Source: Methylotenera mobilis 13 (GTDB lineage: Bacteria > Pseudomonadota > Gammaproteobacteria > Burkholderiales > Methylophilaceae). Taken from it: 64,000 nucleotides of DNA. Within the stretch, counting starts at the first letter, position 1. Each line of letters begins with the position of its first letter. The notes beneath the pieces were generated by a model that was not told where the DNA came from, ran no database searches, and worked only from the letters and a program-made list of their open reading frames with translations. Below are positions 5,260 through 22,655 of the stretch, piece after piece. A program made the translations under genes and the position numbers. The stretch is taken from contig NZ_KB913035.1 of the NCBI RefSeq assembly GCF_000384255.1, forward strand, positions 1,401,362-1,465,361, given 5' to 3'.

Positions 5260-8238
5260 ATGAAATTACTGAGAGCGCTAACTGTTGCGCAGCGATTAAT
5301 GCTGATTATTGTACTAGCTGTTTCTGTGGTAGCAGTACAGGCTGCAATTGGTTTATATGAGCTAAGCCAAGTTAGAACTAGTCTTAAGTCTGTCTATCAG
5401 GATAGGATGGTCCCAGTCGAGTCATTAAATCAAATTACTTTGAATATGCTCAAGAATCGCGCTCATTTAAATGCTGCTTTAAGTCAATATAATGTGGTAG
5501 TAGCTGAAGATGGACAGACCTATATTGAACTTGATGCTCAATCTGCCATAAAAGAAGCTGATTATATTGAAAGTAAAATTAAAGAAATCAGTGGTATTTG
5601 GGCTACATATCTACAGAACAGCTTAACAACAGAAGAGAAAGTGCTCGCTGACAAGTTTGCTAAAAGCCGCGGTCAGTTTGTTGAGGTGGTTTTAAAACCT
5701 GCTGTTGAACAATTGCGTGCTAATAATTATGAAGCATTAAAACTCACCAATCAAAAAGCATATGATTATTACGTGGCAGCTGAAGCTGACATAAATGCTA
5801 TGGTTAAGTTGAATCTAGAGATTGCCGCAAATGAATATGTCAAAGCATCAACTAATTATGAAAATGTACGTTTGCTCACATTTTCTGGATTGTTTTTTGC
5901 CATGCTAATATTAATTTGGTTAGGTTTTGCAATCACGCGCTCAATTACTAAAGCCTTAGGTGGTGAACCAGATACGATGTATGACACAGCTAAGCGCATT
6001 GCATTGGGTGATTTAGATTTTACTATACCATTGGCTACCAATGATCGAAGTAGCACAATGGCCGCAATGAGCACGATGCAAGCTAATATTAAGTTATTGA
6101 TTTCGGATATTGCAACACTATCTCAAGCGTCGCAACAAGGTCGTTTATCTGCGCGTGCAGATGCAAGCCACCATCAGGGTGATTTCCGTAAGGTTGTCAC
6201 TGGTGTGAATGATACTTTGAATGCCGTCATTGGGCCTCTTAATGTAGCAGCAAGTTATATGGAAAGAATCTCAAAAGGGGATATCCCAACCAAGATTGTT
6301 GATCATTACAATGGCGATTTCAATACCATTAAAAACAATATAAACACGTGTATTGATGCTGTTAATAACTTAGTGAATGAAGCAGTTAGTTTAGAAAATG
6401 CTGCGATTGAGGGACGTTTAAATAATCGTGGTGATATCACAAAATATCAAGGTGATTTCCGTAAAGTTGTTGAAGGATTTAATAACTGTTTAGATGCCGT
6501 GATTAACCCGCTGAATGTAGCTGCTGGCTACGTTGATAATTTTGCAAAGGGTAATATTCCAGCAAAAATTACAGATCACTACAATGGTGATTTTAATATT
6601 ATTAAAAACAATTTGAATGCATGTATTGATGCGCTTAGCTTGTTAGTATCAGATGCCAATATGCTGGCACAAGCGGCCCAAAACCATGAGCTAGATACAC
6701 GTGCAGATATTTCTAAACACTGGGGTGATTACCGAAAAGTGGTCGAGGGTGTTAATGGCACATTAGATGCTGTGATGCAACAGAATGCCGCAGATGCCGC
6801 AGAAAAAGCACAAGAAGCACAAGTATTATCTGACGCAGTTGAAGAAACTCAATTGATCATTGAAGGCGCTAAAACAGGCAACCTCAGTAGCCGAGTTTCC
6901 CTAGCAGGCAAAACTGGTGCAATTGCTAGCCTATGTGATGGCGTGAATGCACTGATGGATAAAATGACGGAAGTGATCATCCAAGTGAAAGAAGCCGGTG
7001 AAACCATCAACACCGCAGCTGGAGAAATCTCCTCAGGCAACACCGATCTATCAAGCCGCACAGAACAGCAAGCATCTAGTCTAGAAGAAACAGCCTCTAG
7101 CATGGAACAGCTCGCCTCAACAGTAAAACAAAATGCGGAAAACGCCAAACAAGCCAATCAACTAGCTAGCGCCGCCTCAGGTGTCGCAGTCAAAGGTGGA
7201 GAAGTCGTTGGTCAAGTCGTCAACACCATGAACGCCATTAACCAAAGCGCCCACAAGATTGAAGACATCATCAGTGTGATAGACGGAATCGCATTCCAAA
7301 CCAACATCCTAGCCCTCAATGCTGCAGTAGAAGCGGCCAGAGCCGGAGAACAAGGTCGAGGCTTTGCAGTGGTTGCCGGAGAAGTCCGCAACCTAGCACA
7401 ACGCTCAGCCTCAGCAGCCAAAGAAATTAAAGAACTCATCACCGACTCCGTCAACAAAACCGCAGAAGGCACCAAACAAGTAGAAAACGCCGGTGCCACC
7501 ATGCAAGAAATCGTGACTTCGGTTCAACGCGTCACCGACATCATGGGTGAAATCGCAGCAGCATCCATAGAGCAAAGTGCTGGCATTGACCAAGTCAACA
7601 ACGCCATCACCAGCATGGACGAAGTGACACAACAAAATGCGGCACTTGTTGAAGAAGCCGCAGCGGCTGCTGAATCGCTAGTAGACCAGGCAGTTGGTTT
7701 AATGGACACAGTGAGTGCGTTTAAATTGAGTGGTGGGTCTAGCATGCAAAGTAGACCAAACTTAAGGACAATTCCACAGCCATCGCGTATTGCGGCTAAG
7801 GTAGCTACACCTAAGTTAACACATGACTTTTCATTTGAAGAGGCAAAGCAAGCTCATATTAAATGGAAAACACGCTTGGTAGACTACATTGCAGGTCGTT
7901 CAAAAGAGCATTTAGAAGTAGAGAAAGTTTGTCGTGATGATCAGTGTCCATTAGGTGGCTGGATACATGGTCGAGCACAAAAACATGCTCACACACCAGA
8001 GTATAAAGAACTTAAAACTGCACATGCGGAGTTTCATGAGAGTGTAGGGCATATCGTGCGATGTGTGCATAACCAGAAACAAACAGAAGCTAAGCAATTG
8101 CTAGGCGGAGAGTTTTCTAAGACATCAAAACGAACTATTAATGCGATTAGCGCGATTGAAGCCAGTGTACAAAATCGAATAACAGGGACTAGTAAAGCGA
8201 TTGCTGGTAACGCTGGTGATGATTGGGAAGAGTTTTAA
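5260..8238 (+). CDS. Methyl-accepting chemotaxis protein, poly-HAMP with C-terminal CZB domain
   Basis: 992-residue receptor. TM1 (about 10-30), a periplasmic four-helix-bundle sensor, TM2 (about 205-226), a HAMP domain with ALGGEP, then tandem HAMP-like modules marked by repeated [11 protein letters not shown] and YQGDFRKVV blocks. The methyl-accepting signalling domain contains the hairpin tip [20 protein letters not shown]. Past it is a chemoreceptor zinc-binding (CZB) domain with [14 protein letters not shown] and AHAEFH supplying the His/Cys ligands. The tail DDWEEF fits the CheR/CheB docking pentapeptide pattern. CZB domains in known receptors sense zinc or hypochlorous acid. The DNA encoding the signalling domain (about 6.84-7.67 kb) uses more C-ending codons than its flanks. 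Confidence 0.93.
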
Positions 8239-11733: not shown

Positions 11734-14244
11734 ATGGAAGTAGTAAAAAACAGTCAGATTGATCCATGGGCAACTAGCGCAGATAAATTAATGTCAATGA
11801 CATTGCTTGTATTGGTCGCGATTAGTATCTTTATTGGTTATTCAAATGGAACACAATTTGAGGCTTTAGCTATTGGTGTACCTGCACTTGTTATTCCATT
11901 GCTTTTCGTCAAAACGATGCCAGGTTCAGTGCTTGCTAGAATCTCGCTTGCTGCTGCTTTCATGGTGTTTTCCGCACTTTTTATTCAGCAAACACGGGGT
12001 ATGAATGAAGCGCATTTTTCTATTTTCATTTTATTGGCTTTTCTACTTTATTATCGTGACTGGAAGCCAATTTTCGCTGCTGCACTAGTTATCGCAGTTC
12101 ATCACATTAGCTTCAACTCCTTTCAAACTTATGACTCTGGATTCTATGTTTTCCAATCAGGTGCAAATTATAAGTTGCTATTAATACATGCATTAGCTGT
12201 TGTTTTTGAAGCAGCACTTCTCATCATTATTGCGAATAACCTGCGCAAAGAAGCCAACATGATTGGTGGGGCACCGGAGGATGTTGTTAACATTGCGAGG
12301 CAACTTGCTAATGGCAATTTAAATCAACTCATTGATGTTGATGCTCGAGATAAATCTAGTGTTAAATTTGCGCTAAAAACAATGTCAACCAATATGTCTG
12401 CGATCGTATCTCATATCGAAAGTATGACCGTTGAACATGGAAAAGGTAATTTAGAAGCGTTGATTGAGCTGGATCAGCTTCATGGAAGTTATAAATCCAT
12501 GGCTGAGAAGATCAATGCTATGTTAGCTTCGCAAGCTAAATTAGTACATAAAATTACTCAAAGTGTGATTAACTTTTCTAATGGTGATTTTGATCAACCT
12601 TTTGATCAATTGCCTGGCAAGTTGAGTTTTATTAATGAAGCTATCGAACAGTTGCGTGCTAATGTAAAGGCAATCATTGAAGATATCGCAGAGATGTCGA
12701 AAGAACACGAGGTCGGTAATATTGATGCATCGATGGATGTCAGCAAATATAGTGGTGCCTTTGCGAAAACTGTGATGGGTGTCAATGTAATGGTAGGCGC
12801 GCACGTACGTGAGAAAGAAGAAGTAACGGAAGTGATGCGCGCATTAGGCGATGGTGACTTTGATGTACAAATTCAGCAGTATCCGGGTAAGAAAGCAGAA
12901 ATTAATAAGAATCTAGACAGACTCAAAGGTAAGCTAAAGGGCGCGGTTGATTCAGTAAAGTGGGTCACAAATGAGCATGCGCTTGGCAATATTGATATGA
13001 GTCTACATGCGCATCTATTCAAAGGAGGCTTCTCTGAGCTAGCGACGGCAGTCAATGCGATTGTTGCTGGACAACTAGAGTTGACAGAAAAAGCCCTTGC
13101 CTGCGTTAAAGCGTTTGGTGAAGGTGACTTTGACGCTCCGTTAGAAACATTCCCAGGTAAAAAAGTATTTGTGAATGAAGCCATTGAACAAGTACGTACT
13201 AACTTAAAAGCGCTGAACGAAGATGCGCAATTACTAGCAGACGCAGCCCATGCTGGTCGTGTCACCGTTCGTGCTGATGCAGATAGACACCAAGGTGACT
13301 ACCGCAAGATTGTTAACGGCATGAACGAAACACTAGAAATGATCGTTGGTCCGATTGTGACGGTACAGCAATCAGTAGAAACGATTAACACCGCAGCAAG
13401 AGAAATTGCGCAAGGTAACGCTGACCTATCACGCCGCACAGAAGATCAAGCAGCTTCATTAGAAAAAACAGCCGCCAGCATGGAAGAGCTCTCTTCAACC
13501 GTGAAGCAAAATGCCGACAACGCTAAACAAGCCAACCAACTTGCATCAGCCGCCTCAGGCGTTGCTGTAAAAGGCGGTGTAGCAGTATCAGCCGTTGTCA
13601 GCACCATGGCTCAAATTAACGAAAGTGCCAAGAAAATTGAAGACATCATTAGCGTGATTGACGGCATTGCATTCCAAACGAACATCTTAGCGTTGAATGC
13701 AGCAGTTGAAGCAGCAAGAGCAGGTGAACAAGGTCGCGGATTCGCAGTGGTTGCAGGAGAAGTACGTAACCTAGCACAACGCTCAGCTTCAGCAGCCAAA
13801 GAGATTAAAGAACTGATCACAAACTCAGTTAACAAAACCGCAGAAGGCACTAAACAAGTAGAAATGGCTGGGGAAACGATGCAAGAGATCGTCAGCTCAG
13901 TCAAACGCGTGTCAGACATCATTGGCGAAATCTCAGCTGCATCACAAGAGCAAAGTGCTGGTATTGAACAAGTCAACGAAGCCATCATGAAAATGGATGA
14001 CGTCACACAGCAAAATACAGCCTTAGTAGAAGAAGCGGCAGCGGCAGCTGAATCAATGATGGAGCAAGCGGACGAACTGATGAACGCAATCAGCGTATTC
14101 CAGCTAGGATCACATAGTGAAAGTAAAGTATCGCGTAATGTACCGAAGGTGATGACTAGTAAAGCAGCAACGATTGCTAGACCAACGCCTGCCAAAGTGA
14201 GTATAAAGCCCAGTGCGGATGATGGCGATTGGGAAGAGTTTTAA
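11734..14244 (+). CDS. Methyl-accepting chemotaxis protein with six-helix membrane sensor
   Basis: 836-residue receptor with no periplasmic domain. Instead about six membrane helices (21-39, 44-64, 68-90, 95-113, 115-133, 148-170) carry histidines inside or next to the helices (H94 in NEAHF, H123/H124 in AVHHISF, H152). This could bind a metal or cofactor or sense a membrane-soluble signal; that is inference. Alternating HAMP-like modules follow, marked by FPGK and GDFD blocks, then the signalling domain and the docking tail DWEEF. Residues 353-836 are identical to residues 390-873 of the next receptor, with DNA that reads as identical. GGAA lies 7-10 bases before the ATG. Confidence 0.92.
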
Positions 14245-14312: not shown

Positions 14313-16934
14313 ATGCAAATGACTGTTGCAAGAAAAATGTTATTCATAACATTGATTTCTGTATTAGGTTTAGTAGGTTTGTTAACGCTAAATATTTTCC
14401 AGACTGATTCTGTTTACCAAGACACTAACTATGCTAATTCAAATATAGTGCCTAGTATTATTAAGCTTGATGAAATGCGATATAAGTTCAATACGCTTCG
14501 TATCAGAGTTGCTAATCATACGTTGATTAAAGATGAAGCAAAAATGGCTGAAGTTGAAAGTGCAATTAGAAAACTTCAATCGGAATTGAAAGAAATTACA
14601 GAGTCGTATGTTGGCTTTATTTCAGATGAGCAAGAAAAACGTCTATTAGAGGCTGATGTGGAGGGGTTGAACGCTTACTATTCAGATATGGAGCCCATAT
14701 TAAATGCTTCTCGGGCGAATGACAAAGAACTAGCTCACGAGTTATATATTGCTATCCGTACCCCTGCTGAAAAAGCTAACGGCGATATAGCTAACCACAT
14801 GAGTTATAAAGTTGAGCTTGGTCAGAAATTTGCAAATAATGCACTCGCGCTAAAAGAGCAGTCAACCAATATTTCTTTAGTGATAGGCTTACTGATAGTA
14901 CTTGCTACTATTGTGCTTGGTGTTTTAATTACACTTAATCTACGCAAGCAGTTAGGTGGGGAGCCAGATGATGTTGCTAAAATTGCTAATGACATCGCGA
15001 ATGGTGATTTAAACAGCGCTATTAAAATTAATGCAGATGATCGTTCAAGTCTAATGGCATCAATGCTTACTATGCAGCAAACACTGAGAACTGTTATTGA
15101 TGAACAAAGTGCAATGTCAGCACAAAATAAACTTGGCAATATTAGTGCGCAAATTGACGCTACTAAATTCCGTGGCACCTATAAAACTATGGCTGCTAAT
15201 ATTAATGAAATGGCATCTAATCAAGCCGAAGTGATGCGTAAAGTGACTGCTTGTATTGCTGAATTTTCTAAAGGTAACTTTGAAGCGCCATTAGAACGTT
15301 TTCCTGGTCAACGTGCTTTTATTAATGACGGAATTGAGCAATTGCGGGTCAATATTAAAACGTTCATTGCTGAGATGCAAAGTATGTCTGAGCAGCATGA
15401 TTTAGGTGAGATTGACGTAAGAGTTGATGTGGCTAAATTTACTGGTACTTATGCTGAAATGGCTCAATCATTAAATAAAATGGTAGGCGCGCACGTACGT
15501 GAGAAAGAAGAAGTAACGGAAGTGATGCGCGCATTAGGCGATGGTGACTTTGATGTACAAATTCAGCAGTATCCGGGTAAGAAAGCAGAAATTAATAAGA
15601 ATCTAGACAGACTCAAAGGTAAGCTAAAGGGCGCGGTTGATTCAGTAAAGTGGGTCACAAATGAGCATGCGCTTGGCAATATTGATATGAGTCTACATGC
15701 GCATCTATTCAAAGGAGGCTTCTCTGAGCTAGCGACGGCAGTCAATGCGATTGTTGCTGGACAACTAGAGTTGACAGAAAAAGCCCTTGCCTGCGTTAAA
15801 GCGTTTGGTGAAGGTGACTTTGACGCTCCGTTAGAAACATTCCCAGGTAAAAAAGTATTTGTGAATGAAGCCATTGAACAAGTACGTACTAACTTAAAAG
15901 CGCTGAACGAAGATGCGCAATTACTAGCAGACGCAGCCCATGCTGGTCGTGTCACCGTTCGTGCTGATGCAGATAGACACCAAGGTGACTACCGCAAGAT
16001 TGTTAACGGCATGAACGAAACACTAGAAATGATCGTTGGTCCGATTGTGACGGTACAGCAATCAGTAGAAACGATTAACACCGCAGCAAGAGAAATTGCG
16101 CAAGGTAACGCTGACCTATCACGCCGCACAGAAGATCAAGCAGCTTCATTAGAAAAAACAGCCGCCAGCATGGAAGAGCTCTCTTCAACCGTGAAGCAAA
16201 ATGCCGACAACGCTAAACAAGCCAACCAACTTGCATCAGCCGCCTCAGGCGTTGCTGTAAAAGGCGGTGTAGCAGTATCAGCCGTTGTCAGCACCATGGC
16301 TCAAATTAACGAAAGTGCCAAGAAAATTGAAGACATCATTAGCGTGATTGACGGCATTGCATTCCAAACGAACATCTTAGCGTTGAATGCAGCAGTTGAA
16401 GCAGCAAGAGCAGGTGAACAAGGTCGCGGATTCGCAGTGGTTGCAGGAGAAGTACGTAACCTAGCACAACGCTCAGCTTCAGCAGCCAAAGAGATTAAAG
16501 AACTGATCACAAACTCAGTTAACAAAACCGCAGAAGGCACTAAACAAGTAGAAATGGCTGGGGAAACGATGCAAGAGATCGTCAGCTCAGTCAAACGCGT
16601 GTCAGACATCATTGGCGAAATCTCAGCTGCATCACAAGAGCAAAGTGCTGGTATTGAACAAGTCAACGAAGCCATCATGAAAATGGATGACGTCACACAG
16701 CAAAATACAGCCTTAGTAGAAGAAGCGGCAGCGGCAGCTGAATCAATGATGGAGCAAGCGGACGAACTGATGAACGCAATCAGCGTATTCCAGCTAGGAT
16801 CACATAGTGAAAGTAAAGTATCGCGTAATGTACCGAAGGTGATGACTAGTAAAGCAGCAACGATTGCTAGACCAACGCCTGCCAAAGTGAGTATAAAGCC
16901 CAGTGCGGATGATGGCGATTGGGAAGAGTTTTAA
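14313..16934 (+). CDS. Methyl-accepting chemotaxis protein, four-helix-bundle sensor
   Basis: 873-residue receptor. TM1 (about 8-28), a four-helix-bundle MCP ligand domain, TM2 (about 187-208), HAMP with [24 protein letters not shown]-like modules unique to this protein up to residue 389, then a 484-residue C-terminal portion identical to that of the previous receptor, including the tip [20 protein letters not shown] and the tail DWEEF. Only 68 bases separate it from the preceding stop. The pair would deliver two different sensory inputs to exactly the same output module. Confidence 0.94.
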
Positions 16935-17017: not shown

Positions 17018-17086
17018 GGTGGTGAGTGTAACGTTATCCACCATATGTAAGTAAAAATTGGCAGTAACGTTACACTCGACTGCCAA
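17018..17086 (+). promoter_or_regulatory. Two-hairpin element with mutually complementary loops upstream of the Fae gene
   Basis: Hairpin A: GGTGG/CCACC (17018-17022 with 17038-17042), 15-base loop. Hairpin B: TTGGCAGT/ACTGCCAA (17058-17065 with 17079-17086), 13-base loop. The loops contain GAGTGTAACGTTA (17024-17036) and its exact reverse complement TAACGTTACACTC (17065-17077). As RNA this could form either two hairpins with kissing loops or one long 13-pair stem. As DNA it could be two inverted operator sites around AACGTT. No T-run follows. It ends 53 bases before the Fae start. Confidence 0.55.
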
Positions 17087-17139: not shown

Positions 17140-17703
17140 ATGGCTGTTATTGATCGTGTATTAATTGGTGAGGCATTGGTAATTGAAGATCGCCCAGATG
17201 GTAGTGGTTTAGATCTTAAAAATGTAGCTCACATTGACCTAATCATGGGCCCACGTGGTAGCGCTGCAGAAGATGCGTTTTGCCGTACTCTTACTGATCA
17301 AAAAGAGGGTGTAAATGGCTTGTTAGCTATTGTTGCACCTAACATGATGGTAAAACCAAACACAGTAATGTTTAACAAAGTGACTTTGAAAAACACTAAA
17401 CAATCACTACAAATGTTTGGCCCAGCACAACGTGGTGTTGCGATGGCTGTGATGGACTGTGTTGCTGATGGCACAATTCCTGTTGAAGAAGCGGATGACG
17501 TATTTATTTCTGTAGGTGTGTTTATTGACCAAACTGCAGATATGGATGACCGTATTCAAGATTGGAACTACCGTGCTACTAAACAAGCGATTAAAAGCGC
17601 GATTGCACGTGAGCCAAAAGCTGCTGATTTGTTGAAAGTTTATAAAGAATCTGCACATCCTTTTGCTGCAAAAGAAGGCAGAAGAGCAACAGATAAGGCG
17701 TAG
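17140..17703 (+). CDS. Formaldehyde-activating enzyme (Fae) family protein
   Basis: Fae condenses formaldehyde with tetrahydromethanopterin to methylene-H4MPT in methylotrophs. This 187-residue protein shows Fae blocks NVAHIDLIMGPRGSAAEDAF, LLAIVAPN, KPNTVMFNKVTL, QMFGPAQRGVAMAV and EEADDVF, with the catalytic histidine of the family at H31 (VAHID). It is longer than classical Fae (about 170) because of an insertion before that histidine (roughly residues 15-27) and an extended C-terminus. Strong ribosome site (AGGAG). It lies between receptor 4 and cheR, which is not a normal place for a C1-metabolism gene. It may be an active Fae or a paralogue of the Fae2/Fae3 type with another role, such as formaldehyde binding for sensing. 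Confidence 0.88.
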   Translation: MAVIDRVLIGEALVIEDRPDGSGLDLKNVAHIDLIMGPRGSAAEDAFCRTLTDQKEGVNGLLAIVAPNMMVKPNTVMFNKVTLKNTKQSLQMFGPAQRGVAMAVMDCVADGTIPVEEADDVFISVGVFIDQTADMDDRIQDWNYRATKQAIKSAIAREPKAADLLKVYKESAHPFAAKEGRRATDKA

Positions 17704-17894
17704 TAGTAATAGATGTGATGTGGAGCAATGTTTAAAGATGAAAATGTCCAATAAAGCCAGCTTTAATTAAGTGGTTTTTAGATATTTGCATCTTGCATTG
17801 CTACCTTGTCATTACGTTGATATTGTTCATCAATAATCACAAGTTTATAGGCAGTTAACTGCAATATATTAATAAATAATAAATTAAGAGTGCC

Positions 17895-17971: not shown

Positions 17972-18856
17972 ATGTTTAAAAAAGAGCAGCATGAAGAGGG
18001 GCGAGAGTTTAACTTTACTGCTCAAGACTTTGCTAGAGTACGTCACTTAATTTATCGTCATGCAGGCATTTCACTGTCTGAAGCCAAGTCTGATATGGTT
18101 TATAGCCGTATAGGAAGAAGACTTCGTGTTTTAGGCGCAACATCTTTTAAGCACTATCTAGATAATCTAGAGAGTCAGAACGATCCTGCCGAATGGGAGG
18201 CGTTTACCAATGCACTTACAACGAATTTAACCTCTTTTTTTCGTGAAGAGCATCACTTTCCTATACTTGCAGATCATCTGCTTACCTTAAAAAAACCTAT
18301 CCGCATCTGGTGTTCAGCAGCATCTACTGGTGAAGAACCCTACACAATAGCAATGACAGCGTGTGAAGCATTTGGAAGTTTAAACCCTCCGGTTGAAATT
18401 ATTGCCACAGATATTGATACTAATGTGCTATCAACAGCATCTCGTGGAATCTATCCATATGAGCGAGTGAGTAAGCTCTCTGATGCAAGGCGTAAGCGTT
18501 TCTTTTTAAGAGGTTCCGGTCCAAATGAGGGCTCAGTTGCAGTTAGAAAAGAATTAAAGTCGATGATTACTTTTAGTCAGCTTAATTTACTGGATGAAAA
18601 CTGGGCTTTACACGAGCCATTTGATGCAATTTTTTGTAGAAATGTAATGATTTATTTTGACAAACCTACACAGTCAAAGATTTTAAGTCGTTTTGTACCG
18701 TTAATGAAATCAAACGCATTATTATTTGCTGGTCATTCAGAGAACTTTCTTTATGTTTCAGATGCATTCCATTTAAGAGGTAAAACTGTTTACACTTTGG
18801 CAGATGCAAGCAATGTAAAGCGTTCTAACAGCACAGTTAAAGAGAGAGCTTTATGA
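17972..18856 (+). CDS. cheR: Chemotaxis glutamate methyltransferase CheR
   Basis: S-adenosylmethionine-dependent methyltransferase that methylates receptor glutamates during adaptation. 294 residues: an N-terminal helical domain (FNFTAQDFARVRHLIYRHAG, then TTNLTSFFREEHHF) and a SAM-binding domain with IRIWCSAASTGEEPYTIAM, IIATDIDTNVL and FDAIFCRNVMIYFD. Three receptors here carry DWEEF tails, suggesting this CheR docks to them through its beta-subdomain. The cheD start overlaps its stop (ATGA), so translation is coupled. Confidence 0.96.
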   Translation: MFKKEQHEEGREFNFTAQDFARVRHLIYRHAGISLSEAKSDMVYSRIGRRLRVLGATSFKHYLDNLESQNDPAEWEAFTNALTTNLTSFFREEHHFPILADHLLTLKKPIRIWCSAASTGEEPYTIAMTACEAFGSLNPPVEIIATDIDTNVLSTASRGIYPYERVSKLSDARRKRFFLRGSGPNEGSVAVRKELKSMITFSQLNLLDENWALHEPFDAIFCRNVMIYFDKPTQSKILSRFVPLMKSNALLFAGHSENFLYVSDAFHLRGKTVYTLADASNVKRSNSTVKERAL

Positions 18857-19461
18857 GTATGTTGGAAGAAGAAATTTCAACTACCCTATATTTTGACCGA
18901 ACTTTTGATTGTGAAGCGGCAAAAATTGCACCGGGAGAGTACTACTTTACAGATAAAGACATGTTGATAGTAACTGTCTTAGGGTCATGTGTATCTGCAT
19001 GTATTCGAGATAATAAAACAGGTATAGGCGGTATGAACCACTTCATGTTACCTGATAGTGCAGCTGCAGATAAAGACAGTCCTATTTCTGAATCTATGCG
19101 CTATGGCACTTATGCAATGGAGGTTTTGATAAACCAATTGCTTCGTAACGGCGCAAGACGCGAAAATCTAGAAGCCAAAATATTTGGTGGCGGCAATGTA
19201 CTCAAAAGCTTTACCACCACTAATGTTGGTGACCGTAATGCAATTTTCGTGAGGAAATACCTGAGCGCAGAGGGTATAAGGATTACGGGTGAGGATTTAT
19301 TAGATATCTACCCTAGAAAAGTTTATTATTTCCCTAAAACTGGTCGTGTTTTAGTGAAGAAATTGAAACAAATGCATAATGACACCTTGTTTAAACGTGA
19401 AGAAGTTTACGCAAGTAAACTTAAAACATCCGATGTTGGTGGTGCAATTGATTTATTTTAA
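18853..19461 (+). CDS. cheD: Chemoreceptor glutamine deamidase CheD
   Basis: Deamidates receptor glutamines to glutamates, creating methylation sites. 202 residues with the CheD core: VLGSCVSACIRD (catalytic Cys in GSC), GGMNHFMLP (catalytic His), RYGTYAMEVLINQLL, EAKIFGGGNVL and IGDRN-like VGDRNAIFV. It overlaps cheR by four bases. The C-terminal extension ends GGAIDLF, the same last four residues as the small CheZ-like protein at 957, so the tail may be a common docking motif. cheB follows 40 bases later. Confidence 0.95.
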   Translation: MSMLEEEISTTLYFDRTFDCEAAKIAPGEYYFTDKDMLIVTVLGSCVSACIRDNKTGIGGMNHFMLPDSAAADKDSPISESMRYGTYAMEVLINQLLRNGARRENLEAKIFGGGNVLKSFTTTNVGDRNAIFVRKYLSAEGIRITGEDLLDIYPRKVYYFPKTGRVLVKKLKQMHNDTLFKREEVYASKLKTSDVGGAIDLF

Positions 19462-19501: not shown

Positions 19502-20572
19502 ATGAAAATAAAAGTACTAGTTATTGATGATTCGGCACTAATTCGTAGTTTATTGACTGAGATTATTAACGACCAAAAAGATATGATGGTTGTTGGTGCT
19601 GCGCCAGATCCGCTGATTGCTCGTGAGATGATTAAGCAATTAAATCCTGATGTACTAACGCTTGATGTCGAAATGCCAAAAATGGATGGCTTGGATTTCT
19701 TGGAAAAGCTGATGCGTCTCCGACCAATGCCAGTTGTCATGGTATCTACGTTGACAGAAAAGGGTTCAGAAATCACGATGCGCGCCTTAGAGTTAGGTGC
19801 AACAGACTTTGTCACTAAACCTAAAATGTCTATTACTGAAGGTATGCGTGAGTACACTGAGGAAATTACAGATAAAATTAGAGCGGCCTCTCAAGCGAAA
19901 GTATCATCTCCAAGTCGACATGCTGTTACTGGTAATGTCGAAAACAAGCCATCACAATTACGTAACCCACTGATTAGTAGTGAGAAGCTCCTGATTATTG
20001 GTGCTTCTACCGGTGGAACGGAAGCTATCAAGTCATTTTTGCTACAAATGCCTTCAGATTGCCCTGGTATTTTAATTACACAGCATATGCCTGCAGGTTT
20101 TACAAAATCTTTTGCGAATAGACTAAACTCTTTATGTCAAATATCCGTTAAAGAAGCTGAAGGTGGTGAACGTGTGTTACCTGGTCATGCTTATATTGCA
20201 CCCGGCGATAAACACTTGTTATTAGCAAGAAGTGGTGCAAACTATGTGACTGAACTAAGTGATGCGCCACCAGTGAATCGTCATAAGCCTTCTGTGGATG
20301 TATTGTTTGAATCAGCTGCATTAAATGCTGGTAAAAATGCTATTGGGGTCATCTTGACTGGTATGGGTAAAGATGGCGCTGTGGGTATGGCTCAAATGAA
20401 AAATGCTGGCTCATATAACTTTGCTCAAAATGAGGAGAGTTGTGTTGTGTATGGTATGCCGAAAGAGGCCGTCGCGCATGGTGGCGTAGACGAAGTTGCA
20501 CATCTAAATGAATTGCCTAAATTAGTGCTTAATCATTTAGTGACCAATAGTACCCGTGCTTTACGCGTGTAA
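19502..20572 (+). CDS. cheB: Chemotaxis methylesterase / glutamine deamidase response regulator CheB
   Basis: Removes receptor methyl groups when phosphorylated by CheA. 356 residues: receiver domain (1-120) with D10/D11-type acidic pocket (VIDDSALIR), phosphoacceptor D55 and K107; a linker; and the methylesterase domain (about 160-350) with catalytic S169 (IGASTGG), H195 (TQHMPAG) and D291 (LTGMGKDG). Complete and canonical. It completes the CheR-CheD-CheB adaptation set. Confidence 0.97.
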
Positions 20573-20735
20573 ATCATAGGGAAGTATCAATGATATTGAT
20601 GAAGTCTTGGTCATTTTAACGAATGGTAAAGTCTCCATCATCAATGTTTAGAGTATAAAATAATTATAGAGTTTACTTGTTGTATTGACGTTTAAGTTTA
20701 AGCTTTAATACTAAGAGTATTTAATGGAGTGGAGC

Positions 20736-21134
20736 ATGGCAAATACAAATACTAAATTTCTTGTTGTGGATGATTTTTCTACAATGCGTAGAATCGTTCG
20801 TAACTTGCTGAAAGAGCTTGGGTATACCAATGTAGATGAGGCTGAAGATGGCGTTGCTGCATTGAGTAAACTGAAAGGTGGTGGATTTGAATTTGTTGTA
20901 TCAGATTGGAACATGCCTAATATGGACGGTTTGACATTGTTGCAAAATATTCGTGCCGATGCTGAACTCTCTAAACTACCTGTCTTAATGGTAACCGCTG
21001 AAGCAAAAAAAGAAAATATTATTGCTGCAGCACAAGCAGGTGCTAATGGCTACGTTGTAAAACCATTCACTGCTGCTACACTTGATGAAAAATTATCAAA
21101 AATATTTGAGAAGCTTGAGAAAGCAGGGGCTTAA
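20736..21134 (+). CDS. cheY: Chemotaxis response regulator CheY (second copy)
   Basis: Motor-binding response regulator. The start is placed at the second ATG ([15 protein letters not shown]), which has GGAGTGGAG just upstream; the earlier ATG at 20724 overlaps that ribosome site. With this start the 132-residue protein has the same numbering as E. coli CheY: D12, D13, D57 ([10 protein letters not shown]), T87, Y106 and K109. It is followed two bases later by cheZ, so this is the likely motor CheY, whereas the copy at 1.6 kb has Trp at the Y106 position. Confidence 0.95.
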
Positions 21135-21136
21135 CT

Positions 21137-21826
21137 ATGACTAGTGAAGTCACACAGCAGCAAGCTGCAAATGTTGAATCTTCAGTTGGATTGTCATCGA
21201 GTGATGAAATTCTTAACCGTGTAGGGCATGTCACTAGAACATTGCATGATAGCCTAAGTGGATTAGGCCTAGATAAAATATTAGAACAAGTTGCACAAGA
21301 TATTCCAGATGCGCGTGATCGATTAGCTTATGTGGCTCGGATGACTGAGCAGGCAGCAGAGCGTGTTCTGAATGCAACTGATGTGGCGATTCCATTACAA
21401 GAGGAGCTTGCGTCTGGCGCAACAGCATTGGAACAACGTTGGAAAAGTGTAATGGCTGAGCCATCATTAAAGAGCGAATATAATTTGGCCGCAAATGAGA
21501 CGCTTACTTATTTAGCAATGGCAGGAAAAAACACAGCAGAAACCAAAGCCTTACTGATGGATATCATGATGGCGCAGGATTTTCAGGATTTGACGGGACA
21601 AGTCATCAAAAAAATCACTGGCCTAGCTCAGGATTTAGAAAAGCAGTTAGTGCAATTACTCATTGATTTTTCACCAGCTATCCCTAAGAAAGACGCAGAA
21701 GCAAATAAAGCTGATACCGGTGATAACTCAGCGCTTTTGAATGGGCCACAAATCGATCCAAATGCTGTGGATGTTGTTGCTAGCCAAGAGCAGGTCGATG
21801 ATTTGCTTGATAGTTTAGGGTTCTAG
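21137..21826 (+). CDS. cheZ: CheY-P phosphatase CheZ
   Basis: 229-residue helical phosphatase that speeds CheY-P dephosphorylation. The motif AQDFQDLTGQVIKKI (147-161) carries the catalytic pair D151/Q155, and the end QEQVDDLLDSLGF is the CheY-binding C-terminal helix of canonical CheZ. A flexible region (about 180-210) links them. It is translationally coupled to cheY (2-base gap). The presence of a true CheZ makes the CheZ-like motif of the small protein at 957 notable, since the locus would hold two. Confidence 0.95.
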   Translation: MTSEVTQQQAANVESSVGLSSSDEILNRVGHVTRTLHDSLSGLGLDKILEQVAQDIPDARDRLAYVARMTEQAAERVLNATDVAIPLQEELASGATALEQRWKSVMAEPSLKSEYNLAANETLTYLAMAGKNTAETKALLMDIMMAQDFQDLTGQVIKKITGLAQDLEKQLVQLLIDFSPAIPKKDAEANKADTGDNSALLNGPQIDPNAVDVVASQEQVDDLLDSLGF

Positions 21827-22109: not shown

Positions 22110-22655
22110 TTAATTCCCAGTCCCCTGAATGTTTTTTAAGTCGTCAATTATTTGCTGAGAGTGGTTAGAAACATCCACACTATTATAGATTTTGATTACT
22201 TTTGAACTCGGGTCAATGAGAAATGTATAGCGTTTTGCAATTTTAGTGAAGATTAGATTGCTAAGCGCGTGATAAGCCTTTGCGACGCTACCATCAGTGT
22301 CAGCTAGCAAGGTGAACGGTAGGTGGTATTTCTCTGCAAACTTCTGGTGAGAGGTTTCTGAATCAACACTTATTCCAATTACCTTGGCATTCAATTGTTC
22401 TAGTTTAGATAAGTCATCTCTAAAGTTGCATGCCTCTTTAGTGCATCCTGGGGTGTCATTTTTAGGATAAAAATAAAGTACTACATATTTTCCTTTGTAG
22501 TCAGATAACAAGTGATTGCTACCTTTTGTATCTTTTAAACTAAACTCTGGAGCATCTTCTCCTATAGTTAAACTCGGTTGCATAGATGAATAGTGGCGAT
22601 AGCCTAGGAATGCAACGAGTATGATTGCTGCATAAAAAAGAACCTTAATTAACAT
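22110..22655 (-). CDS. Membrane-anchored peroxiredoxin, Bcp/PrxQ type
   Basis: Thiol peroxidase reducing hydrogen and organic peroxides with thioredoxin-like donors. 181 residues: an N-terminal hydrophobic segment (about 4-19), longer than cytoplasmic Bcp (about 155), then a peroxiredoxin fold with YFYPKNDTPGCTKEACNFRD (peroxidatic C71, resolving C76) and VIGISVDS. The anchor suggests it acts on the periplasmic face. It converges on cheZ from the opposite strand and seems monocistronic. Some homologues are called thioredoxin-dependent thiol peroxidase. Confidence 0.9.
   Translation of the reverse strand: MLIKVLFYAAIILVAFLGYRHYSSMQPSLTIGEDAPEFSLKDTKGSNHLLSDYKGKYVVLYFYPKNDTPGCTKEACNFRDDLSKLEQLNAKVIGISVDSETSHQKFAEKYHLPFTLLADTDGSVAKAYHALSNLIFTKIAKRYTFLIDPSSKVIKIYNSVDVSNHSQQIIDDLKNIQGTGN

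Follow-up and report, generated by a model that had tools for sequence, protein, structure and literature searches.

The fae gene and its chemotaxis neighborhood

The window, that is, the whole stretch of 64,000 nucleotides of Methylotenera mobilis 13 DNA analyzed here, contains a formaldehyde-activating enzyme gene (fae) surrounded by chemotaxis genes. The features at this locus are listed below.

14313–16934, plus strand: gene for a methyl-accepting chemotaxis protein with 4HB, HAMP and MCPsignal domains and the C-terminal end DWEEF, upstream of fae
17024–17077, strand not applicable: perfect 13-nt inverted repeat, GAGTGTAACGTTA / TAACGTTACACTC, arms 28 nt apart, upstream of fae
17140–17703, plus strand: fae, 187 aa, ATG start; canonical-type formaldehyde-activating enzyme by PF08714 and TIGR03126, over cut-off, and by orthology
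17665–17700, plus strand: C-terminal tail after HPF (AAKEGRRATDKA), a short form of the RRxxD tail of the lineage
17704–17830, plus strand: stable RNA structure between fae and cheR (z −5.3; 0 of 200 shuffles equally stable)
17972–18856, plus strand: cheR (Pfam CheR, 188.9 bits)
18853–19461, plus strand: cheD (Pfam CheD, 114.4 bits)
19502–20572, plus strand: cheB (Pfam CheB_methylest, 223.5 bits)
20724–21134, plus strand: cheY-type receiver gene (Pfam Response_reg, 106.7 bits)
21137–21826, plus strand: cheZ (Pfam CheZ, 252.5 bits)
22110–22655, minus strand: peroxiredoxin gene (Pfam AhpC-TSA, 142.3 bits)

Pfam confirmed the arrangement described in the earlier note: fae lies between a receptor gene and cheR, is followed by cheR-cheD-cheB-cheY-cheZ, and all of these genes are on the plus strand. 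Two adjacent receptor genes share an identical 1456-nt run at their 3′ ends (12789–14244 and 15479–16934), which points to a recent duplication or to gene conversion. A further receptor of the cluster (5260–8238) has a chemoreceptor zinc-binding (CZB) domain at its C terminus. We considered the inverted repeat upstream of fae as a conserved operator and rejected this; among the che-linked loci scanned, it is perfect only in the window and in L033, where both arms are changed, and it is imperfect in the others.

The encoded protein is a canonical-type Fae

Enzymes of the Fae family condense formaldehyde with tetrahydromethanopterin. The product of the ORF at 17140–17703 matches Pfam PF08714 (Fae) over residues 9–175 with 207 bits (E 1.7e-61). 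Against the NCBI equivalog TIGR03126 it scores 197.5 bits, compared to a cut-off of 118.05, and covers positions 2–160 of the 160-position model, as a canonical Fae with a full-length domain does. No domain other than Fae was matched in Pfam and NCBIfam, and the protein has no signalling or receptor domain of its own. The closest solved structure is 1y5y (Fae; E 1.6e-53), which we take to be the M. extorquens protein. His31, Asp33, Leu62, Lys80, Thr82 and Gln97 of the window protein are identical to the 1y5y sequence (6/6 positions); presumably, these are the active-site positions of M. extorquens Fae, His31 being the catalytic His and the other five being ligand contacts. The catalytic His is therefore kept, as had been claimed for this gene.

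The genome (2.80 Mb, single contig) holds three Fae-family genes: the window fae, one copy that is 61% identical to it (FaeB, G000:599553–600104) and one that is 34% identical. The latter (L115 1474–2124, minus strand; G000:202449–202949) is without the catalytic His, which the window protein keeps, so the window protein is not of Fae2 type. We call the 34%-identical gene Fae2-like, a label drawn from gene counts in the accessible part of PMC4109929. Its codon adaptation index (CAI) is at the ribosomal level (0.764), and perhaps it encodes an abundant non-canonical Fae. According to the accessible text of PMC5023235, single deletions of fae2 and fae3 in Methyloversatilis gave no growth phenotype, whereas deletion of fae1 did.

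The H4MPT pathway is represented in this genome by mch, MtdB-type, beta-RFAP synthase and H4MPT-linked TIGR03123 genes. Profile searches confirmed several of its H4MPT genes, together with those for transaldolase, hexulose-phosphate synthase and hexulose-phosphate isomerase. Among 40 family genomes picked, 22, several of them incomplete assemblies, keep mch with no canonical-type Fae (no orthologue of at least 69% identity and no FaeB type). Fae is therefore not strictly required in the family, and H4MPT pathways that lack a true Fae may be widespread. The record titled Methylotenera versatilis 7 (L101 8001–8540) encodes a Fae that is 76–77% identical to that of the window. In the available portion of PMC4109929, 'Methylophilaceae 7' is described as having no true Fae; going by the name, it would be the strain of L101.

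Relocation of fae from the H4MPT/RuMP cluster

In Methylobacillus, Methylovorus, Novimethylophilus and gammaproteobacterial relatives, the fae orthologue is located within the H4MPT/RuMP cluster (hereafter cluster-linked), and L073 has the complete order orf5-tal-hps-hpi-fae-hisA-like. The identity between the window fae and the H4MPT-cluster Fae of other Methylophilaceae is mostly 81–88%, and 74–80% for the more distant ones. Of the 14 genomes checked for the old slot, hpi-[fae]-hisA-like, 11 have hpi directly beside hisA-like and the slot empty; these are ten genomes with che-linked fae and the che-less G006. The other three have fae in the slot. The new site shows the reciprocal picture: in nine genomes that have fae elsewhere, the receptor gene of the che cluster adjoins cheR without fae in seven, one shows no receptor there, and in one the contig ends.

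A protein tree of 99 rows was built with the tail excluded and 19 identical cores left out. The che-linked proteins group with L038, which lies at a contig end, and L105, whose che genes are gone (support 82/67). This group and its sister group, L070/L087/L162, form one clade (99/96; the bootstrap had not fully settled), which is nested among the cluster-linked Fae. An AU test had also been made with the che rows constrained to form a clade (p 0.097); it was badly posed, with L105 falling inside the group and yet left out of the constraint, and the clade supports replace it. By its nested position in the tree, this clade and the reciprocal synteny, the window fae is an orthologue of the H4MPT-cluster Fae of its Methylophilaceae relatives. 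The earlier note had called it a paralogue; it is instead the cluster gene, relocated, and the candidate role of a sensing-specialised paralogue was dropped on the same synteny and tree. Since the relocated lineage and its sister form one clade, a single relocation suffices, and one fae move would be enough to explain the distribution.

Convergent che linkage elsewhere in the class was looked for and rejected. The class-wide scan gave 82 non-own Fae matches in 48 genomes, and 81 of them, all but the G276:C11 match, were covered by 80 stretches (at most ∼6 kb on each side, shorter at contig ends). The order receptor-fae-cheR occurs in 0/80 of these stretches. Four (L211, L214, L224 and L256) contain a receptor- or che-like match of more than 40 bits, and H4MPT genes are also present in 46 of the 50 stretches that bear a non-Fae2 Fae. 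In L214 (5974–8711, minus strand), from a distant class member, a receptor-like gene immediately precedes a Fae whose N terminus is extended, possibly an independent link.

Conservation of the linkage between fae and the che genes

We examined how firmly fae stayed with the che genes in a family sample of 150 genomes, in which CheD was counted at an identity of at least 60% and the Fae orthologue at that of at least 69%. The fae orthologue is present in 83 genomes and CheD in 64; both are within 4 kb of each other in 42, and both are present but apart in 21. G022 is the single genome with CheD in which the fae orthologue was not found. In the 42 che-linked genomes, the distance between fae and CheD is 1571–1848 bp by listed coordinates, and strand and order are the same. 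Judging from the named loci, we read genus codes g1 and g19 as Methylotenera and Methylophilus, respectively. All CheD-bearing genomes of both have che-linked fae (16/16 and 22/22, together 38/38), so the placement is stable, and four more che-linked genomes lie outside these two genera.

Eight g1 genomes are without CheD, and all of them retain mch. Among them, fae is intact in G006, G117 and G137, is cut by a contig end in G122, and was not found in the remaining four. The gene is likewise intact in 17 genomes of other genera that were counted as CheD-less, one of which (G024) has a 31% match. A sensor partner should be kept only where the chemotaxis genes are kept, and fae is not so restricted; however, since four of the eight CheD-less g1 genomes are without fae, loss of the motility genes may take fae along. 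In L105 (genome G152, same places as G117), a receptor fragment remains 249 bp upstream of fae, and the che genes are gone. In the che-less sisters L070, L087 and L162, fae is directly followed by a peroxiredoxin gene, a homologue of the gene after cheZ in the window; on the simplest reading, the che genes would have been deleted around a retained fae.

The N-terminal insertion and the C-terminal tail

Compared to 1y5y, nine residues are inserted near the N terminus of the window protein, and its C terminus has 8–9 additional residues. Both of these segments, which the earlier note had pointed out, are real, but they differ in their distribution. The insertion is present in 32/37 distinct cluster-linked Methylophilaceae proteins, shorter in five, and absent in six gammaproteobacterial ones. 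Because it is common to most of the cluster-linked relatives, it does not mark a chemotaxis role, and we rejected it as a marker.

The tail, in contrast, is nearly lineage-specific. Among distinct proteins, the core motif RRxxD/N was found in 38/39 che-linked, 1/43 cluster-linked (L100) and 2/10 other proteins (L038 and L105); the count covers proteins of at least 160 aa other than L001, with identical proteins within one class taken once. The number of residues after HPF is 3–5 in cluster-linked proteins, apart from one truncated fragment and L100, which has 14 and fills two rows with the same protein; in che-linked proteins it is 12–61, except for four in L044. In the longer tails, RRxxD is followed by one or two 'AxxQMKxR'-type repeats, which occur in no non-Fae ORF of the loci scanned; in the group of the window, the tail is shortened to about nine additional residues. 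Calculated for five sets of relatives, dN/dS is 0.11–0.23 for the tail and 0.02–0.04 for the core. To judge from these ratios, the tail is a real protein segment under purifying selection, with a weaker constraint than the core. A structure model of one long-tailed Fae (L072), in which the tail is mostly one helix, has a mean pLDDT of 65.5, a confidence too low for use.

Tail and che linkage both arose in one lineage (one independent pair on supported branches), and their association therefore counts as one event. The Fae of L100 (8001–8573) lies in an H4MPT cluster, separated from the hisA-like gene by several genes, and its tail is of che type with the end SRRAEDN. In listings and partial texts of the literature on Fae, chemotaxis and these genera, we found no description of the C-terminal tail or of the two-sided relocation, and a search for a C-terminal extension gave no paper. 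The tail, almost confined to the relocated lineage, is apparently undescribed.

Codon usage and RNA structure

CAI was calculated with 26 ribosomal, elongation-factor and rpoA genes as reference (mean 0.72). The CAI of fae is 0.762, that of the che and receptor genes is 0.53–0.64, and that of hps, tal and hpi is 0.76–0.84. The codon usage of fae is that of an abundant enzyme; it matches hps, hpi and the ribosomal genes, unlike the che genes. This signal could be inherited.

Where the cheR start can be placed, the gaps between fae and cheR are 56–520 nt. In 20 of 29 distinct loci, the first 130 nt of the gap have z < −2; the 130 nt upstream of fae, taken as control, do so in 5 of 29. In nine of the 29 gaps the RNA is not unusually stable. 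With 44-nt windows, 16/29 gaps are more stable than all 60 shuffles, and the gap at our locus is not among them (6/60 as stable). These counts omit gaps shorter than 60 nt and ∼13 loci, mostly long-tailed Methylophilus, in which the cheR start could not be placed. The RNA structure at 17704–17830 may end or protect the fae transcript. No T-run terminator was found in the window, and the fae strand showed neither a classical terminator nor a promoter of sigma-70 type; in Rfam, no match reached a gathering score. As a mobile repeat the hairpin was rejected: the genome holds short weak second matches and no second good copy.

Co-expression with motility had been suggested for this gene. The stable RNA after the fae stop, in 20/29 loci versus 5/29 upstream controls, does not support it, although it is no proof of separate transcription. 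As for what would undo a link to chemotaxis, the gene does lie elsewhere outside one lineage, and its separate transcription is suggested rather than shown.

Origin and function of the relocated fae

We consider it probable that the window fae is an ordinary, catalytically equipped metabolic Fae that was relocated into the che genes and forms its own unit. In an ancestor shared by the Methylotenera- and Methylophilus-type genera, a single fae would have moved out of the H4MPT/RuMP cluster (hpi-fae-hisA-like) to a position flanked by a receptor gene and cheR. It has remained there, probably as a well-translated unit of its own and in most cases separated from cheR by a stable RNA structure. The relocated lineage carries the C-terminal tail, composed of RRxxD and then zero to two short repeats, with about nine extra residues in the group of the window. 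Here, the protein presumably works as metabolic Fae, transcribed apart from cheR and in need of no chemotaxis partner. Several findings stand against this metabolic reading. The 38/38 linkage and the selection on the tail are not predicted for a pure passenger, and FaeB likewise exceeds the cut-off of TIGR03126, scoring higher (229 bits). The low transcription of the M. mobilis che-cluster fae relative to mmol_2056, the 10-fold rise in M. versatilis 301 (both described below), the missing T-run terminator, the nine gaps of ordinary RNA stability and the 22 genomes with mch but no canonical-type Fae also count against it.

What the earlier note had taken as pointers to a sensor, a paralogue with an insertion, turned out to be a relocated cluster gene with a common insertion, Fae as its sole domain and enzyme-like codon usage; a chemotaxis role would be kept open by the tail and the steady linkage only. 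A catalytic Fae might also report formaldehyde to chemotaxis, with the tail docking on CheR, CheD, a receptor or the array. The near-restriction of the tail to che-linked proteins (38/39 versus 1/43), its purifying selection, a repeat pattern seen in no non-Fae ORF of the loci scanned, the linkage in all 38 CheD-bearing genomes of two genera, and sensing or signalling roles proposed earlier for Fae, as told in the accessible text of PMC3728764, are consistent with such a double function. We nevertheless think it unlikely. The tail is down to about nine extra residues in the group of the window and absent in che-linked L044, it is present in cluster-linked L100 and in L105 with the neighboring che genes gone, its association with the linkage amounts to one event, and the model of the long-tailed Fae is of low confidence. 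Moreover, in the part of PMC10613068 available to us, formaldehyde taxis of Methylobacterium aquaticum proceeds via a receptor and does not depend on fae1, fae2 and hgd, which are genes for formaldehyde oxidation. It is a long shot that Fae was recruited after the move as a flux-reading chemotaxis component, which would turn over formaldehyde with its tail (RRxxD and helix-like repeats) docked to CheR/CheD, a receptor or the array, so that the formaldehyde load tunes adaptation; if so, the short tail in the group of the window would be a minimal dock.

Fae could instead be co-transcribed with the che genes, so that formaldehyde capacity rises as cells turn motile. This fits the constant strand, order and CheD distance (1571–1848 bp) in the 42 che-linked genomes, and the accessible text of PMC3728764 reports that a fae in a sensing/chemotaxis cluster of M. 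versatilis 301 was up about 10-fold in sediment; but the same text describes mmol_1253 as unresponsive to in situ conditions, the gaps to cheR reach 520 nt with stable RNA after fae in 20/29 loci, and the codon usage of fae differs from that of its neighbors, which makes such coupling quite improbable. The 10-fold rise implies that regulation differs between the species, as far as that text goes. It is very improbable that the window fae is a second Fae specialised for sensing and that the metabolic role lies with the FaeB-type gene. FaeB does outscore the window fae (Pfam 226 versus 207 bits, TIGR03126 229 versus 197.5 bits), and in the portion of PMC3728764 at hand, the che-cluster fae of M. 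mobilis is transcribed much less than mmol_2056 in JLW8, a gene that would be of FaeB type. Against it, a FaeB-type copy is missing from 29 of the 42 che-linked genomes (among these, G139 has another copy elsewhere, 73% identical), and by synteny the che-linked gene is the displaced cluster gene. FaeB also has low codon adaptation (CAI 0.505) and, in the alignment with 1y5y, Asp in place of the Thr that we take to be a ligand-contact residue.

What was a published curiosity, fae in a chemotaxis cluster, becomes the relocation of a single gene for which the site of departure and that of arrival can both be seen. In addition, a central formaldehyde enzyme has a lineage-specific tail that can be removed and tested, and the old idea of Fae signalling is now directly testable in single-Fae Methylophilus.

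Comparison with known systems

The window protein resembles Fae as represented by TIGR03126 and PDB 1y5y in its full-length domain, the catalytic His, the residues taken as ligand contacts, and a score far above the cut-off. It differs in the nine-residue insertion (found in most of its family), the C-terminal tail and the location among che genes instead of H4MPT genes. Fae2 and Fae3, as treated in the accessible part of PMC5023235, belong to the same Pfam family; the one Fae2-like gene of this genome is 34% identical to the window fae and misses the catalytic His.

The che-cluster location and the sensing idea were already known, since both were in print by 2013–2014 in the available portions of PMC3728764 and PMC4109929. 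The former places Methylotenera mmol_1253 in a sensing/chemotaxis cluster and recalls an earlier idea of Fae in sensing; the latter reports one fae in a conserved chemotaxis cluster of new Lake Washington strains, and not in H4MPT clusters as for Methylovorus and Methylobacillus. The window shares with them fae in a conserved chemotaxis cluster outside the H4MPT cluster; the empty slot, the tail and the persistence without che genes, none of which is mentioned in those portions, are added here. A known link between formaldehyde and chemotaxis is MtpA of Methylobacterium aquaticum 22A, which, in the accessible text of PMC10613068, is a receptor and not a Fae.
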